IMG/VR virus record: IMGVR_UViG_3300040801_003161
Coordinates: 1-36,406 of that record
Source: a virus
Length of the DNA: 36,406 bases
Direction: 5' to 3' (one strand)
Below the pieces are notes generated by a model, which was not told the origin of the DNA, searched no databases, and saw only the letters and a list, made by a program, of their open reading frames with translations. The first letter of the stretch is position 1. Each line of letters opens with the position of its first letter. This document shows positions 2,777 to 36,168 of the stretch, one piece after another. Both the position numbers and the translations under genes were made by a program.

Positions 2777-4009
2777 CTAAGAGCCTGACAAGAATTTATA
2801 TAGCTCAACTTGCGCTGCAGGAACGTACTCGCCCACGGTTCCATTCGGCCTAAAATAAGTCGCAATGCTTCCTGTTTTTGCCGTTGTATTTGGGGGAGCG
2901 CCTGCCGTTTCATAAAGTATCTGACCGCCGTCAACGGTTGGCTCCATAATTGCATAGCGACCGCTGCCTAGGTCAAAATTAACCCGGCCACCGCCGTTTG
3001 CCCAATTTGCAGGAACCTCTGTGTCGTATTGGCTAGGGGTATAATTGCCGTTAGAAAACGCCAAAACAAAAAAGCCTGCTGTTGGCCAATTGGATAATAT
3101 CGGCTCGGGTGCAGCGCACGCTGCCGTATCACCTGCGTCTAATCCACAGTCTTGTATTCCATAACCTGTTGATACTGTTCCGCCCGGGCTATAGGCATTA
3201 AAAGCATAGCCTGTGCCACCAATTGAGCCAACAGTATCGCCAACCTCTGGTGCCGGGTCTGAAGTTAAGAACATAGTATCACCCGGCGTTGGTGAAAGCG
3301 ATGTAACAAGGTTTGATGCCCCGGTTCCGTCTACCGCAACAAATTGCGCTGATGCAGGTATAAGATTGCCGGGGATTAAGCCTTCATAAAAACTATTACT
3401 AAAACCGTAAGGAGGGAAAGCCCATACTTTTCCGGCTTCATAACTAGGGTCAACGCCCGGTGTTCCGGGTTGCTCCCATCCGTTTGGCTTCCTTTGGGAG
3501 CCATCCAAATTAACAGCGACGTTTTTGCCTGAATGATACTCTTTGCCTGTTACATTACGGTATTTTTTCTCTTTCCTTGCATTGCCACTAGACTTCGATG
3601 CATTGGTATCGGTTCTATTACCATCGCCATCGGTTTCGTTACTATTGTCAATGATGTCTTTAGCGCTTCGATTGCCTGAGTTTTCAAGGTTTGCGCTTGC
3701 GCTTTTGTCGGTATTTTCTTCAGAATCGTTGTCTTTTTCCGCGTCTTTTTCAGGGTCAAAGTTTTGTAAATCCTTGTCGTTATATTCCAGATCGTCTTGA
3801 AAATCGCTATCAATATCGGTTGTTAAGCTATTATTTGAAGGTGAGCCTGTTTGAACGCCTGTGGTGCCGTTGGCTTTTAAATAAGCTATAGCACGCTGTC
3901 CTTCGATAGCAGCTTTTTCTGCTAGTAACGCAGCCTTAACCGCTTTGTCTACCCTCTCCTCTAGGTACTTAGTCCGGGCAATTTTTTGTATATCATTAGC
4001 GAAAGTCAT
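2777..4009 (-). CDS. Putative tail fibre or tail-tip protein
   Basis: The encoded protein has 410 residues. The start at 4009 is chosen because GGAG lies 7 nt before it and it overlaps the preceding gene by a few codons. An N-terminal helical region (about residues 1-50) is followed by a low-complexity Asp/Glu/Asn/Ser linker (about 60-150). A Gly/Pro/aromatic-rich beta domain makes up the C-terminal half. This anchor-linker-binding-domain layout fits a receptor-binding or tail-tip accessory protein, and it is last in the tail module. The C-terminal domain has several cysteines, uncommon in the neighbouring tail genes. The receptor is unknown. Confidence 0.55.
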   Translation of the reverse strand: MTFANDIQKIARTKYLEERVDKAVKAALLAEKAAIEGQRAIAYLKANGTTGVQTGSPSNNSLTTDIDSDFQDDLEYNDKDLQNFDPEKDAEKDNDSEENTDKSASANLENSGNRSAKDIIDNSNETDGDGNRTDTNASKSSGNARKEKKYRNVTGKEYHSGKNVAVNLDGSQRKPNGWEQPGTPGVDPSYEAGKVWAFPPYGFSNSFYEGLIPGNLIPASAQFVAVDGTGASNLVTSLSPTPGDTMFLTSDPAPEVGDTVGSIGGTGYAFNAYSPGGTVSTGYGIQDCGLDAGDTAACAAPEPILSNWPTAGFFVLAFSNGNYTPSQYDTEVPANWANGGGRVNFDLGSGRYAIMEPTVDGGQILYETAGAPPNTTAKTGSIATYFRPNGTVGEYVPAAQVELYKFLSGS

Positions 4010-5753
4010 CTGAAAACTCCAAAACAAGATAATCATTGGGAATAGACACTGTATAATTCGTCGTTTTTGTAAGCTCACGATTCCCCCTTATTTGGTCAGG
4101 TATTTTCGGTGTATCAACAATGAACGCCTCCGGATATTGAGTTCTATAACCAACACTTGAGGATGTACCATCAAAAAACTTATTGCCGATGTGACCATTC
4201 CATTCGGCAGCGCTCGGGGTTGTAGGGTCTTGGCCATAATGGCTTTGTAATACTACCGATTGAGCTGTACCGATATAACTTGCATCCTCGCTAGGTTTAG
4301 CAGGGATTGCAAGTGTTGAATTTGAAGCAGAGCCATCTATTAATGATAAGGAAAGCTCGACATCGGTATAAGCCTCACCTGTTTGAATCATAATGGTATG
4401 TTTAACAGCCGATACTTTTCCCCTACATTTTAGCGGTGTGGTTGTTACCGATATAGTATGGTGGGTGTCGTATTGAGGGCTTATTTGCGTTTGAAAATCA
4501 ACCATTACATCGCGGTGGGAATTCAAAAGCTCGGTTTTGGCTTGGTTCATTAAGACGTTAAACGCCCCTTGAAACGTTCCTCTGTTGTTGTCTTGGTCGG
4601 TGTAGTAATTGGTGGCGTTTCCATCATCGTTGACCGAGTCTTCCCAAACTTTAGGGTCGTACTCTGCAGTGACCTGATGTGTCTCTTCATGATCGACGGT
4701 TCCATATTTTGTTACCGATTGAGGTGCGGTTAAAGTTACGGTGTATTGTTCTTGTATATTTTGGGTAAAGCGCTTGTAAGCCTTCCAATTCGCTGATAGG
4801 CAAAGGTGTGAGGCGGTATCTTGATAAGTAATCTGTGCCAGCTCTGTTTGGTTGTTACCGTTTGAATCTTGGATAACGTTTCCATCGGTATCGGTTTGAT
4901 TTCTATAGCTTGAACCCACGACGCTTTGGGTTGACCAGTAAATATTAATCCCGTTGTAAGTAAACCATTGCGAATCCCAAAGAGCGCCAAAGTTATAATT
5001 GCCAAGTATTTTATAGCCTACACCCTGCGAAGCAGAGCGAATCATATCTTTTGATGGGAAGCTTGGCCTGCCGTTAGCATACCAAGTTCTTGGTGTTGAG
5101 CCAAAAAATGAACCATTCCAGACGTAGTTAATTACCTGCTGGTGTAAGCGTTGATAATTATAGTTAACTTTTATTCTAATAGTGTTTATTGTTTTAACCC
5201 TTGAAGAAAAGGTCACCTCCGGGTTTCGGTAATAAACATGGCCTGCAGTTAGGGCAAAGTCTGCCGTACCTTTAGGCGACCAAGCTGTAAGCCTTGGGTT
5301 TCCATAATTATCAAAGTCAAAGCTATAAGGGATGGTGCTTAAGCGTTTTCGCAATTCATCTGATTTATCTTCCGGCGTTCCGAATATTTCGCTCGAATAA
5401 TAACCAACTTGGTCTATATAATTATTTGATAAAGCGTTTATTTTATTTTCACGGTTATCAGTGCATCGGTATGTGGTTTTTTTTAAAAGTAAATCAACCT
5501 CCGGCACATCAATTTTTCCTGTAAACGCCCTGTATAATCCGCTTGAGGTTCTTATATCAATCTTTACATCTTCGCCTTGGGTGGAGCTAGGGTTTTGAAT
5601 TCCTGCCGGGTTTAGCAAAGTAAAGCTTGCCAAAGCAGAGGTATTTTCTGTTTTCGAGATGGTTATTTTGCCGTGTATTTGAGAGCGTGGAACCTGCCAA
5701 GTCCCAATCGTTATAAATACGTCATAGCCATTCCGTTGGTAAAATATTGACAT
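3996..5753 (-). CDS. Tail hub or baseplate-like protein
   Basis: The 585-residue protein starts with a beta-rich domain of the kind found in GpD/gp27-like tail hub proteins, with GKITISKTENTSALASFTL near residues 28-46 and a following DIRTSSGLYRAFTGKID segment. A long beta-rich middle and Thr/Ser-rich C-terminus follow. Hub proteins cap the tail tube and hold the fibres. It overlaps the 100-residue repeat protein by one base and the following fibre gene by 14 bp. The assignment rests on fold pattern and order, not on a decisive motif. Confidence 0.5.
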   Translation of the reverse strand: MSIFYQRNGYDVFITIGTWQVPRSQIHGKITISKTENTSALASFTLLNPAGIQNPSSTQGEDVKIDIRTSSGLYRAFTGKIDVPEVDLLLKKTTYRCTDNRENKINALSNNYIDQVGYYSSEIFGTPEDKSDELRKRLSTIPYSFDFDNYGNPRLTAWSPKGTADFALTAGHVYYRNPEVTFSSRVKTINTIRIKVNYNYQRLHQQVINYVWNGSFFGSTPRTWYANGRPSFPSKDMIRSASQGVGYKILGNYNFGALWDSQWFTYNGINIYWSTQSVVGSSYRNQTDTDGNVIQDSNGNNQTELAQITYQDTASHLCLSANWKAYKRFTQNIQEQYTVTLTAPQSVTKYGTVDHEETHQVTAEYDPKVWEDSVNDDGNATNYYTDQDNNRGTFQGAFNVLMNQAKTELLNSHRDVMVDFQTQISPQYDTHHTISVTTTPLKCRGKVSAVKHTIMIQTGEAYTDVELSLSLIDGSASNSTLAIPAKPSEDASYIGTAQSVVLQSHYGQDPTTPSAAEWNGHIGNKFFDGTSSSVGYRTQYPEAFIVDTPKIPDQIRGNRELTKTTNYTVSIPNDYLVLEFSDDFR

Positions 5754-16425: not shown

Positions 16426-17082
16426 TTAAGCATTTTTATTATTGCTCTCATGCGCACGATGCAGCTTCTCAACAGCCGGGACAATGTTTTCATTCTTTGA
16501 TTGATTGTTTTTTCCGGGACTGCCGGTCGGCTGTGTGGGACGCCCACCACTGGCCTGAGTGCCTTTGACTAAGGCAGAATATTTCGGCGTTTCGACGAAT
16601 TCCTTTTTTAGTTCATCGATAGTTGAGACTGTCAACTCGCCTTTTTCATTCGTTACTTTGACACCATCTTCCGAAAATTTCAAGCGTCTTGATATAAAAT
16701 CGCTCAATAATTCGGCGCTATGGTTATCATAAGCAATCTCAGAGGCAAGCTTTGAGGCCACGCTTGATATTTCGCGCTTTTGGTCTTTGGTGGTGTATTC
16801 TTGAATCGTTTGATTTGCTTTTTCATACTTTTGGACTAGGTCTTGATTCTTTTCCTCAAGCGCTTTAATAATAGCCTGAGCATCGCCTGTTTCACGGGCT
16901 AATCTTTCCTCGTCTTCTTTTTTCTTGGCTTCAATTTCACGTCGCTTGTCAGATTCTTTTCTTTTTTCGTTGACAAGCTCTTCATTGTTAGCCTTTACCT
17001 TTTCAAATTGCCCTGTGATATCGGTTAATTTTTTTTCTAATTCCGAGATCATCTTTTTTGCATCTTCCAGAGTTAAGTCCAT
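16426..17082 (-). CDS. Scaffold protein
   Basis: The 218-residue protein is a charged coiled coil at about residues 1-115, followed by a linker and a basic Gly/Pro/Asn-rich tail. This is the standard shape of a siphovirus scaffold (DUF4355-like), which shapes the prohead and then leaves. It lies between the MuF gene and the major capsid gene. Confidence 0.8.
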   Translation of the reverse strand: MDLTLEDAKKMISELEKKLTDITGQFEKVKANNEELVNEKRKESDKRREIEAKKKEDEERLARETGDAQAIIKALEEKNQDLVQKYEKANQTIQEYTTKDQKREISSVASKLASEIAYDNHSAELLSDFISRRLKFSEDGVKVTNEKGELTVSTIDELKKEFVETPKYSALVKGTQASGGRPTQPTGSPGKNNQSKNENIVPAVEKLHRAHESNNKNA

Positions 17083-17125
17083 ATTGTCCCTCTTTTGTTT
17101 TAGTTTTCCTGTTAACTAGCATTGC

Positions 17126-18193
17126 TTAATCATCAAGCCCTGCCTTATCAAAAGCGACTGGATATAATCGCTTAAGCTCATCAAGCGAATAAGTCGCCTG
17201 CCTAGAGTCGGTGAATTGGTCTATTTTGAGACCGCCCCTTTTCCATAGCGCATAACGCGCCTCGCCATCGGGTTGTTTAAAAAAATATTCTTTCTGGAAA
17301 GTTGACCCTTGATTGTCTAACCAAGTACCAAAGCTTTGGCCTGCTCTTACGGTTTCAGCACCGCTCTTTCCAATTGAGGGTCTTTCGCCTTCAACCTTGG
17401 AAAACAGGTCATATTCAGGCTTAACCCTTGGGATTAAAGTAGTACGGCACCCCCAGTGATAAGGTGGCCAAACTTCCTCCCCTATTGGGTAAACTTTGCC
17501 ATCTAATCCTGCGCAGATAATTGTTGTTTGTGAGTCAAGCGTTGCCACTACCTCATAGCCTTCCAACACATCGGCGTTTTCCTTAAGTGTTTCCATTCTT
17601 GCAACAGTTGAGACGTGGTTTGTTACCGTTCGCACTAACGCTTCCGCTTGATTGCGGTGTTGTTGCGCTTGGATTGAATTGAGGTCTCTTATTATTTCGC
17701 CGTTTGATTTACCTAAAACGATGCCATCTCTTAGCGTTTGGACTATTTGCTTTCTTTTTTTCTTACGGAATGAGGAAAGCGCATCGCCTATTGTTCCGCG
17801 CCCCTCCGTTGGTACATAGTCCATAATGTTTGTATTAAGCGCTGCTTTTATTTGCTCGGTACTTGGCAGGTTAAATTCAGCGCTGCTTCCCTTATCGACC
17901 ATGCGCTTTGTAAATTCGGCCTCATACCTTGCAAAGCCTGTCATAGACTTTTCTATTTTTTTCTGGAATTTTTCATATACTTTATCGGTTAAGCTTTCCA
18001 AATCTCTATAAATTTGCAAGAGCCTGTCGCGCCTTATGTCGGTAAGTTCATCAAGTTTTTTTAATTCATTGGCCACATCTTTTTGTAAGCGCTTTAATAA
18101 AGGCAATAGCTCTCTAACTTGCCCCCCTGCAAAGCGCTGAACAAAAACGGCATGACGTGCCGATGCGTTCTTTAAGAATTGGCGTGTGCTCAT
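17126..18193 (-). CDS. MuF/SPP1 gp7-like minor head protein
   Basis: The 355-residue protein carries the MuF domain near residues 180-262: HRNQAEALVRTVTNHVST, then DSQTTIICAGLDGKVYP, then PPYHWGCRT. These proteins attach to the portal and are packaged with the head; some act in DNA exit. The gene begins in an ATGA overlap with the portal gene, so the two are coupled. The N-terminal part is helical and charged. Confidence 0.85.
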   Translation of the reverse strand: MSTRQFLKNASARHAVFVQRFAGGQVRELLPLLKRLQKDVANELKKLDELTDIRRDRLLQIYRDLESLTDKVYEKFQKKIEKSMTGFARYEAEFTKRMVDKGSSAEFNLPSTEQIKAALNTNIMDYVPTEGRGTIGDALSSFRKKKRKQIVQTLRDGIVLGKSNGEIIRDLNSIQAQQHRNQAEALVRTVTNHVSTVARMETLKENADVLEGYEVVATLDSQTTIICAGLDGKVYPIGEEVWPPYHWGCRTTLIPRVKPEYDLFSKVEGERPSIGKSGAETVRAGQSFGTWLDNQGSTFQKEYFFKQPDGEARYALWKRGGLKIDQFTDSRQATYSLDELKRLYPVAFDKAGLDD

Positions 18194-34742: not shown

Positions 34743-35180
34743 ATGAATTTTAAGGATGAAAGCAGGGGTTTTAGAAACAATAATCCGGGGAATATTCGCA
34801 ATACCACCATTGATTGGAAAGGCGAAACAAAAGGTGATGACAAGGGCTTCGAGACCTTTGAGTCGGTTGAATACGGTATCAGGGCTATTTTTCGCCTCTT
34901 GAAAACTTACAGGGAAAAGCATGGCCTGCGAAGTATAAGAGAAATAATTTATCGCTTTGCACCGCCTAACGAAAACAACACCGATGCTTATATAGCAAGT
35001 GTGATGTGGTATATGCAACATAACGATGTTAGGGCTAGACGGCTTTTAACCGAAACAGGCGAAAACTTAGAGCCTTATTCTGAAAGCTTAATGCCTTTAT
35101 TTGTTGAGGCAATTATTGCCCACGAAAACGGCTTACAACCTTTTAACTCGGAGTTTATTAAAAAATGCTCCAAGCTATAA
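34743..35180 (+). CDS. Putative endolysin
   Basis: The 145-residue protein matches a family annotated as structural protein P5 or lysozyme-like: FRNNNPGNIR (residues 10-19), then TFESVEYGIRAIFRLLKTYREKHGL, then REIIYRFAPPNENNTDAYI, and a final helix with YSESLMPLFVEAIIAHENG. These proteins cut or bind peptidoglycan. There is no signal peptide. A consensus ribosome-binding site AGGAGG precedes the ATG. Its location in the early rightward block is unusual for an endolysin, so a virion-associated lysin remains possible. Confidence 0.75.
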   Translation: MNFKDESRGFRNNNPGNIRNTTIDWKGETKGDDKGFETFESVEYGIRAIFRLLKTYREKHGLRSIREIIYRFAPPNENNTDAYIASVMWYMQHNDVRARRLLTETGENLEPYSESLMPLFVEAIIAHENGLQPFNSEFIKKCSKL

Positions 35181-35285: not shown

Positions 35286-35663
35286 ATGAAAGTTAAACTG
35301 GCCGAGGCGTTGCTTCGCCGTAAAGAATTACAGGCAAAGGTCGACCAATTGCAACGAATCAAAGACAAAGATTTGGTGTATGATATACGGCTTAAACGCA
35401 TATCAGTTAACGATGGTCTTGACGAGGTTTCAGGGCAATGTCCCCTTTTAGATATTAACCAAGTCACCGCTGAATTTGATTATTATGCTCGGGCTTTGCG
35501 GTTGGTAGATGCCTGCATTCAACAAACAAACTGGACTGCCGATGTTGTCGTTGACGATAACGTTTTCAGGGCTTGGTCTAAGCCTGCGCCTGTTGACGTT
35601 GAAAAAAGCAGCGAAGCTTTTAAAAAGGCATGGTCTCAACATCCAGAGCCACCAAAAGAATAA
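35286..35663 (+). CDS. DIP1984/septicolysin-like protein
   Basis: The 125-residue protein begins KLAEALLRRKELQAKVDQLQR, the characteristic start of the DIP1984 (septicolysin-like) family, whose members are small helical proteins of uncertain function. A helical acidic body and a Pro-rich C-terminus follow (SQHPEPPKE). The start at 35286 is used because the in-frame ATG just before it leads to a stop. It is the last gene before the structured RNA. Function unknown. Confidence 0.55.
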   Translation: MKVKLAEALLRRKELQAKVDQLQRIKDKDLVYDIRLKRISVNDGLDEVSGQCPLLDINQVTAEFDYYARALRLVDACIQQTNWTADVVVDDNVFRAWSKPAPVDVEKSSEAFKKAWSQHPEPPKE

Positions 35664-35672
35664 AACCGTTTT

Positions 35673-36019
35673 AACTTGTCTAGTGGAGCGAGTAGGGTTG
35701 CCACGCACCATAAGCGTGAGATTGTTGCAACGATCGAAAGCCCCGTGCAGGGTTAAGCACCGCTGCTTGTAGCGTAAACAAGCTAATGCGTAGCTCAGCT
35801 GGTTAGAGCGTTGGAATGTTAATCCAAAGGTCGTGGGTTCAATTCCCACCAAGGGACTCATAATCCCTAGCGAATAACTCCGATTAAGATAACTTTTAAA
35901 AAAGTATATCCGAATAACCGAATAGCAAACCAGCAAGCCTTTGGTGGCGCGTTGGCTAAAATCCGATTTTTGACTACGATAAATCCGAATAACCAGCTCG
36001 CTGCTAGACAAGTTTTTTT
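35673..36019 (+). ncRNA. Candidate large structured RNA with a tRNA-like domain
   Basis: No convincing rightward gene lies in this 370-bp gap. AACTTGTCTAG (35673-35683) pairs with CTAGACAAGTT (36004-36014), AGCGAG (35687-35692) with CTCGCT (35997-36002), and GGTT (35696-35699) with AACC (35991-35994). This 21-pair closing helix ends in a T-run at 36013-36019. Inside are hairpins at 35702-35718, 35720-35735 (loop TTGCAA), 35745-35760, 35765-35783, a tRNA-like domain, 35888-35910, 35923-35958 and 35958-35970. TCCGAAT or TCCGATT recurs at 35879, 35909, 35962 and 35984. It could be a small relative of the large phage RNAs (GOLLD, ROOL) or a new class. Confidence 0.6.
35791..35870 (+). tRNA. tRNA-Asn(GTT)-like domain with a permuted acceptor stem
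   Basis: The D arm (GCTC 35793-35796 with GAGC 35806-35809), anticodon arm (TTGGA and TCCAA, loop ATGTTAA, anticodon GTT) and T arm (GTGGG and CCCAC, loop TTCAATT) are all perfect. The expected 5' acceptor strand, just upstream, does not pair with CAAGGGA (35850-35856). Instead TCCCTAG (35864-35870), downstream of it, pairs with one A-A mismatch, through a 7-nt loop CTCATAA. The fold is therefore a cloverleaf opened between acceptor and D arm. A normal mature tRNA is unlikely unless the RNA is processed. Confidence 0.6.
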
Positions 36020-36024
36020 ATTAT

Positions 36025-36097
36025 GGGGGTGCAATGAATATAGACATGTTTCATTCTAGGATAATATCCTCCGTTGTGCGCCCCCACCATTTTTTTA
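36025..36097 (+). terminator. Terminator-like hairpin after the structured RNA
   Basis: GGGGGTGC (36025-36032) pairs with GCGCCCCC (36078-36085), followed after four bases by a run of eight T. A second small palindrome, AGGATA-A-TATCCT (36058-36070), lies in its loop. The left arm also contains the ribosome-binding site of the ORF at 36034, so the element could stop transcription or hide that site. Confidence 0.5.
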
Positions 36098-36168
36098 GGC
36101 CGATAGATAAGCGCTTAGAAAAAGTCAAAGAGCAAGATAGGCAATTAAGGAATCCAAACAATGGCTAA
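36034..36168 (+). CDS. Small basic ORF, uncertain
   Basis: A 44-residue ORF begins 2 bp after the left arm of a hairpin that contains its GGGGGT ribosome-binding site. The protein is basic, with SSVVRPHHFFRPIDKRLEKVKEQ. It overlaps the junction gene by 8 bp. Because the hairpin resembles a terminator, this ORF may not be translated. Confidence 0.35.
   Translation: MNIDMFHSRIISSVVRPHHFFRPIDKRLEKVKEQDRQLRNPNNG

Follow-up and report, generated by a model that had tools for sequence, protein, structure and literature searches.

Organization of the RNA locus

The window analysed here, the whole 36,406-base stretch of a phage record from IMG/VR, carries portal, scaffold, tape-measure, RecE/RecT-like and endolysin-like genes, and its right end (35673–36014) is occupied by an RNA locus that lies directly 3′ of a gene for a 125-residue protein (35286–35663). 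An earlier sequence-only reading of this DNA had described ~345 nt of structured RNA with a closing helix of 21 pairs and a T-run at its end, in a gap without a convincing protein. This description was borne out: the locus is one of ~70 related loci in which the 5′ helices covary, the closing helix comprises 11 + 6 = 17 pairs to which the MFE fold adds a few, seven T residues stand at its end, and the open reading frames that overlap the RNA match no phage protein family. The embedded tRNA, the DIP1984-like gene and the repeat array had been overlooked. An Rfam 15 scan of the window RNA, a search that the same reading had proposed, returned the tRNA body (35790–35850) as its sole match and left the core without one, in agreement with the remark in that reading that the arrangement was not a recognised one. 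The features of the locus are as follows.

35286–35663, + strand: gene for the DIP1984/DUF6847-like protein, 125 aa; stop codon 9 nt before the closing helix
35673–35683, + strand: P1 5′ strand, AACUUGUCUAG; 11 exact pairs with 36004–36014
35687–35692, + strand: P2 5′ strand, AGCGAG; six pairs with 35997–36002
35693–35697, + strand: pseudoknot 5′ strand, UAGGG; pairs with CCAUA at 35708–35712 (4/5 pairs in the window)
35702–35718, + strand: pseudoknot hairpin, CACG-(CACCAUAAG)-CGUG; stem covaries in 70 RNAs
35720–35735, + strand: hairpin T, GAUUGU-UGCA-ACGAUC; self-complementary loop UGCA, a predicted symmetric kissing loop
35765–35783, + strand: hairpin P6, GCUUGU-AGCGUAA-ACAAGC, read from the sequence; 7-nt loop ending in UAA
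35790–35850, + strand: tRNA-like body, Asn(GUU); Rfam tRNA 53.3 bits, E 7e-9, model positions 7–64 of 71
35793–35809, + strand: D arm of the tRNA-like body
35811–35827, + strand: anticodon arm of the tRNA-like body; loop AUGUUAA, anticodon GUU
35833–35849, + strand: T arm of the tRNA-like body
35852–35868, + strand: hairpin P8, AGGGA-CUCAUAA-UCCCU, after the T arm
35878–35994, + strand: 3′ domain, CCGANU repeats on a ~7.6-nt lattice; in the window a hairpin at 35931–35957 interrupts the array
35997–36002, + strand: P2 3′ strand, CUCGCU; pairs with 35687–35692
36004–36014, + strand: P1 3′ strand, CUAGACAAGUU; pairs with 35673–35683
36013–36019, + strand: run of seven T after P1; possible terminator or 3′ end

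The MFE of the region is −111.9 kcal/mol against −88.6 ± 5.0 kcal/mol in dinucleotide shuffles (z −4.7), and the reverse strand gives a nearly equal z of −4.5. Because both strands score alike, folding energy was not taken as proof of a structured RNA; the question is settled by the comparison across homologous loci, in which the closing helix pairs despite unrelated sequences.

Distribution of the family and its probable partner gene

Relatives of the DIP1984-like protein led to ~70 distinct phage loci with the RNA in IMG/VR, the records of which are partly fragments. The RNAs are 255–425 nt long, and in nearly every locus tested the core adjoins the gene homologue on the same strand, with a median of ~7 nt from the gene stop to the closing helix. 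A covariance model built from 27 RNAs, the window included, finds the core in all held-out protein-bearing loci except one (L083, found in an earlier scan), with the best hit on the plus strand beside the gene and mostly at E < 1e-6 (L059 is weak, E 0.04). The model finds one clear copy of the RNA in each of 18 phage records, and in L097 and the probable prophage L107 it places the RNA upstream of the gene. L107 is a Planctomycetota MAG contig with a DIP1984-like gene, the RNA core upstream (2062–2127) and an adjacent integrase-like ORF (2881–3936); the RNA and gene system thus probably occurs in a prophage as well. Cultured Vibrio phages (Zobellviridae) also carry the RNA, among them PS32B (MW824407), a phage of Vibrio crassostreae in which the RNA of ~270 nt lies at ~16970–17241 of the record, and 1.264.O, a phage of V. 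splendidus. In L109 (from MG592629) and L110 (from MW824407) the RNA sits within gaps, at 4303–4677 and 4300–4603 of the respective locus, that are annotated as empty intergenic sequence; in MG592629 it is followed by genes annotated as sigma-factor fragments. Taken together, these loci almost certainly represent a conserved structured RNA family.

Similarity searches with DNA do not recover these relatives, because only the tRNA part is alike: against cultured phages, the match was limited to that part and to ordinary tRNAs. The 3′ domain alone as a DNA query found no relatives, nor did the endolysin-like neighbor (34743–35180) as a search anchor. RNAs without a partner gene are under-sampled, since the search ran through the protein; one pattern scan gave five loci, one of them on a contig absent from the protein search.

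The partner protein scores 28.3 bits against Pfam PF20935 (cut-off 27; 33.2 bits for the homologue in locus L012) and 37.8 bits against NCBIfam DIP1984, under the cut-off of 70, and its best PDB profile match is 3kdq (E 0.002). AlphaFold with 67 sequences gave a weak helical hairpin (pLDDT 71, pTM 0.49; pLDDT 53 for a model from 14 sequences), for which the top fold match is DIP1984 itself (3kdq, E 0.57), the other matches being insignificant. Plasmids searched for relatives of the protein had none, and a literature search of incomplete coverage on the function of DIP1984/DUF6847 found no paper. From its place beside the gene, we give somewhat better than even chances to the RNA working as an RNP with the neighboring protein.

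The closing helix and the 3′ end

P1 is present in 71/71 RNAs with unrelated sequences and extends up to ~30 pairs, so that the covariation check proposed by the sequence-only reading found pairing of the closing helix in every locus despite wholly different sequences. In the window an internal loop, UGG/G, separates P1 from P2, and a similar layout of P1, loop and P2 is seen in homologues. A T-run of at least four residues stands at the P1 3′ end in 27/71 RNAs against 18/213 control windows. We infer that the locus yields a discrete RNA product. Promoter and terminator scans showed nothing above chance.

In many loci (for example L045, L032, L037, L005 and L082) the sequence of the P2 5′ strand recurs in a short segment that directly precedes the first CCGA. 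The P2 3′ strand could, by complementarity, pair with either the P2 5′ strand or this segment before the array, a possible switch or a possible domain swap between two RNAs. Just beyond the locus in the window, at 36024–36086, an inverted repeat, UGGGGGUGCA/UGCGCCCCCA, with its arms 43 nt apart, encloses the start of a small ORF (36034–36168).

The 5′ pseudoknot and a palindromic hairpin loop

The 5′ strand of the pseudoknot varies among the RNAs (for example AAGGC, AAGGU, AAGCA, AAGCG, CAGAGU and ACGCG), and its partner in the hairpin loop varies with it (GCCUU, ACCUU, UGCUU, CGCUU, ACUCUG and CGCGU, respectively). In 70 RNAs, with segments placed with pairing in mind, the pseudoknot helix is 94.6% paired and shows 46 double changes against 7.8 (maximum 20) with shuffled partners; on the same placement, the stem of the pseudoknot hairpin is 98.6% paired with 147 double changes against 48 shuffled, and the stem of hairpin T shows 183 against 53. 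An independent count matters because of that placement, and in a plain MAFFT alignment 89.7% of positions are paired, with a covariation of 0.773 against 0.216 shuffled and 0.07–0.15 when the partner is slid. The 5′ helices thus covary far above both the shuffled and the slid controls.

Hairpin T consists of a 6-bp stem and a 4-nt loop, and this loop is palindromic in 54/70 RNAs by strict count and in 62/70 with G-U pairs allowed, against 1 in 16 expected, a comparison whose p-value is overstated because the RNAs are related. The palindromes are of many kinds (GGCC, GCGC, TGCA, GTAC, CCGG and others), and repeated switching among them cannot be explained by pairing within one chain. In a cryo-EM study of OLE and GOLLD, a covarying palindrome was taken as evidence of symmetric intermolecular kissing loops (PMC12286853). 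The hairpin T loop is accordingly predicted to form a symmetric kissing loop, and on this pattern of change we consider it likely that the RNA forms a homo-oligomer. Downstream of hairpin T, hairpins with ..GUAA loops recur in homologues at the place of P6.

An interchangeable tRNA slot

The segment from P6 to the 3′ domain holds a module whose content differs widely among the RNAs. By reading of the sequences, the arms of a tRNA follow in their usual order in ~36 RNAs. Circularly permuted tRNAs, in most cases opened on the anticodon side and running from T arm through acceptor hairpin to D arm, are present in ten RNAs and in near relatives of these. Another five combine an anticodon arm with a T arm but have no D arm, an anticodon-type hairpin stands alone in about fifteen, and five are unclear. 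Some RNAs (L023, L052, L059, L073 and L109) show no clear anticodon hairpin. In the permuted modules the acceptor strands pair at 59/70 positions against 34 when dealt among RNAs, and the distance from the 3′ strand of the anticodon stem to the T arm is mostly exactly 5 nt, as in a normal variable loop. The 28 normal-order modules scanned have 146/196 acceptor pairs against 83 when dealt among RNAs, many with five to seven pairs.

An anticodon-type hairpin (stem of at least 4 bp, 7-nt loop NNNNUAA) is found in 49/71 modules against 2.1 in shuffles, and among modules without a T arm in 14/19 against 0.4. Across 63 anticodon loops, those in modules without a T arm being partly picked by eye and leaning towards the U36-A37-A38 pattern, U33 occurs in 49, U36 in 50, A37 in 59 and A38 in 56; 13 loops do not have U36, 56 have either U36 or A36, and seven have G36. 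These loops hold 20 kinds of anticodon, led by GUU (15), GCU (10) and GAU (9), followed by 17 rarer ones.

In two pairs of RNAs, L007/L010 and L024/L025, the 5′ cores are 100% identical while the modules are 75–77% alike with 44–53 gap columns. L007 and L010 encode identical partner proteins, and the module is a full tRNA (GAU) in one and a remodelled one (GUU) in the other. By these alignments, near-identical RNAs swap their modules. In three loci (L025 5500–5700, L029 900–1100 and L069 1960–2200) the module reads as two permuted tRNAs in tandem, in the order T arm, acceptor hairpin, D arm, anticodon arm, T arm, acceptor, D arm, as if from a tRNA circle. In another three (L039, L066 and L077) a second hairpin resembling a T arm (UGUGG-UUCGAUU-CCACC and similar) follows a complete tRNA.

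The tRNA body of the window is without an acceptor stem (3/7 acceptor pairs) and was not called by ARAGORN. It is not the four-arm cloverleaf with a 7-bp acceptor stem that a functional tRNA has; some other family members have one. P8 may be either a second anticodon-like loop or a displaced acceptor. A reading in which the window tRNA is permuted between nucleotides 7 and 8 (acceptor CAAGGGA/UCCCUAG, 6/7) was set aside, because homologues often have a hairpin following the T arm and because a tRNA body that lacks the acceptor is the simpler description.

The 3′ GA array

The motif CCGA[ACU][UC] occurs 3.9 times per 115 nt of 3′ domain against 0.16 in shuffles, at spacings that cluster at 7–8, 15–16, 22–23, 30–31 and 38 nt. 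GA dinucleotides peak at ~7, 15, 22, 30, 38, 46, 54, 61, 68, 76 and 83 nt upstream of the last GA, and this period was not found in the DNA downstream of the RNA. The array comprises ~11–12 units of ~7.6 nt and appears unpaired. Such a pattern would suit one RNA strand wound around an oligomeric protein, of which TRAP, with a 5-nt period, is a known example.

Possible function of the RNA

The features described above suggest a model in which a constant frame (P1/P2, pseudoknot, hairpin T and GA array) would enclose a slot for tRNA parts that nearly always presents an anticodon stem-loop, the acceptor, D and T arms being optional and permutable. The small neighboring protein, or another oligomeric protein, would bind the 3′ array, and contacts between palindromic loops would join the RNAs into dimers or larger assemblies that hold out anticodon arms as bait. 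During infection these arms could serve in counter-defence as decoy substrates for host anticodon nucleases or for other enzymes that act on anticodon loops. Many modules cannot serve as ordinary tRNAs, because the acceptor stem is absent or the order permuted, and a decoy is favored because many modules can be neither charged nor used as tRNA and the anticodon arm is what they retain. Other modules, also numerous, are ordinary tRNAs with acceptor stems that could be used; this counts against a decoy and fits cargo or a tRNA precursor. The 13 anticodon loops without U36 and the RNAs without a clear anticodon hairpin count against the model too. We hold the role of anticodon decoy only tentatively. 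The statement as a whole, that these are an undescribed family of trans-acting phage RNAs with a decoy mechanism, seems to us somewhat short of an even chance, and the fullest version, an RNP class in which a kissing-loop oligomer and an oligomeric protein wrapped by the array carry tRNA or anticodon modules that shield infection from anticodon-cutting defences, is rather unlikely in all its parts.

The RNA could instead be an ornate cargo RNA like GOLLD or ROOL, self-assembled into a cage or ring, in which the tRNA parts are linker cargo or neutral passengers and the anticodon loop is unselected. The predicted kissing loop fits such an RNA, as does the occasional presence of phage tRNAs in the variable linker of GOLLD (PMC12286853), but neutral passengers would not keep an anticodon-type hairpin where the T arm is gone, GOLLD is about twice as large as this RNA, and neither the GOLLD nor the ROOL model matches it here; we regard this as an unlikely account, if a serious one. 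An RNA directed at translation, with its anticodon arm or arms placed in a ribosomal site so as to bind or block ribosomes, or to pair with ANN codons and reprogram host translation, would explain why nearly all loops have A37-A38 and most have U33, as in decoding tRNAs, and GOLLD has been reported to bind ribosomes in pull-downs (PMC12286853). The diversity of the anticodons speaks against it, and a ribosomal site could take up permuted and bulky modules only with difficulty, which makes this role distinctly less probable than cargo.

The same loops bear on tRNA-modifying enzymes. U36 or A36 followed by A37 is the typical substrate loop for t6A or i6A/ms2i6A synthesis, and most loops conform to it, so the RNA might titrate the enzymes of these pathways or need the modification itself; G36 in seven loops does not fit, the bias could simply mirror the tRNAs that phages pick up, and we think such a sponge improbable. 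The acceptor pairing of the 28 normal-order modules would be expected of a long-flanked precursor to one or several functional phage tRNAs, or of a permuted one whose maturation takes RNase P/RNase Z and ligation. The absence of an acceptor stem in the window, the ~20 members with an anticodon arm alone or without a D arm, and a conserved frame, palindromic loop and 3′ array that have no role in tRNA supply make a precursor more doubtful still. Hardly any weight can be given to a bacterial Y RNA, in which the permuted tRNA part would be a YrlA module acting with the Ro60 protein: the Rfam scores for YrlA (33.3 bits in the window, 36.3 in L012 and 29.7 in L062) are far under the cut-off of 69 and arise because the permuted-tRNA shape is shared, most members lack such a module, and no Ro60/TROVE gene was found in ten phage records, the window's among them, which may be incomplete and whose host could supply the protein.

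The RNA bears on why phage RNAs such as GOLLD and ROOL accompany tRNAs, and on how phages meet tRNA-cutting defences. The family is spread widely among distantly related phages with a tight protein-gene neighbor, the model makes clear predictions (a kissing loop, ring-like binding and anticodon bait), and these can be tested at once because cultured Vibrio phages carry the RNA.

Comparison with known RNAs

No Rfam 15 family, group I intron included, covers the RNA core, and a member without D or T arms (L034) has no Rfam 15 match at E up to 2. The sequence-only reading had compared the locus with GOLLD and ROOL, which was a good hint as to the kind of RNA, but neither Rfam model matches at the gathering cut-off in the window and 14 related loci, or in four RNAs searched with E limits of 5 or 2. 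Like GOLLD, the present RNA is phage-encoded, ornate, and placed near or around a tRNA, and it has, as a prediction, a symmetric kissing loop with a covarying palindrome such as that described for GOLLD (PMC12286853). GOLLD occurs in phages and prophages and forms a nanocage of 14, and many GOLLD RNAs exceed 800 nt, against 255–425 nt here; the DIP1984-like gene neighbor, the permuted tRNAs and the 7.6-nt GA array set the present RNA apart from it. ROOL is likewise a phage RNA with pseudoknots, a variable linker and tRNA genes nearby, but it forms a nanocage of eight and differs in size and architecture. We know of neither a protein partner nor an internal tRNA module for ROOL.

The OLE RNA forms a homodimer through a kissing loop in which the tetranucleotide switches among the palindromes GGCC, GAUC and AGCU (PMC12286853). 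These changes are of the same kind as those in the hairpin T loop, whereas organisms, size, secondary structure and partner proteins are different, and the present RNA has no Rfam match to OLE. With YrlA it shares, by the alignments, a tRNA-like module permuted and opened at the anticodon side, but in this family only some members have the module, the match is under the Rfam threshold and a Ro60 gene is missing. The tmRNA, of ~350 nt, combines part of a tRNA with pseudoknots, and permuted versions are known; the present RNA resembles it in size and in this combination but keeps the anticodon arm that tmRNA lacks, and tmRNA was rejected as an identification, there being no Rfam or ARAGORN tmRNA match.

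A literature search on permuted tRNA parts in phage RNAs found no paper, its coverage being incomplete and a description elsewhere possible, and we know of no RNA that uses a tRNA as an exchangeable insert, still present when circularly permuted or when cut down to its anticodon arm. On a stricter reading, the RNA could join the ornate phage RNAs as a new variant; as far as our comparisons and knowledge reach, the combination of a frame, a permutable tRNA slot, a partner gene and a 7.6-nt array appears to be without precedent among them or elsewhere.
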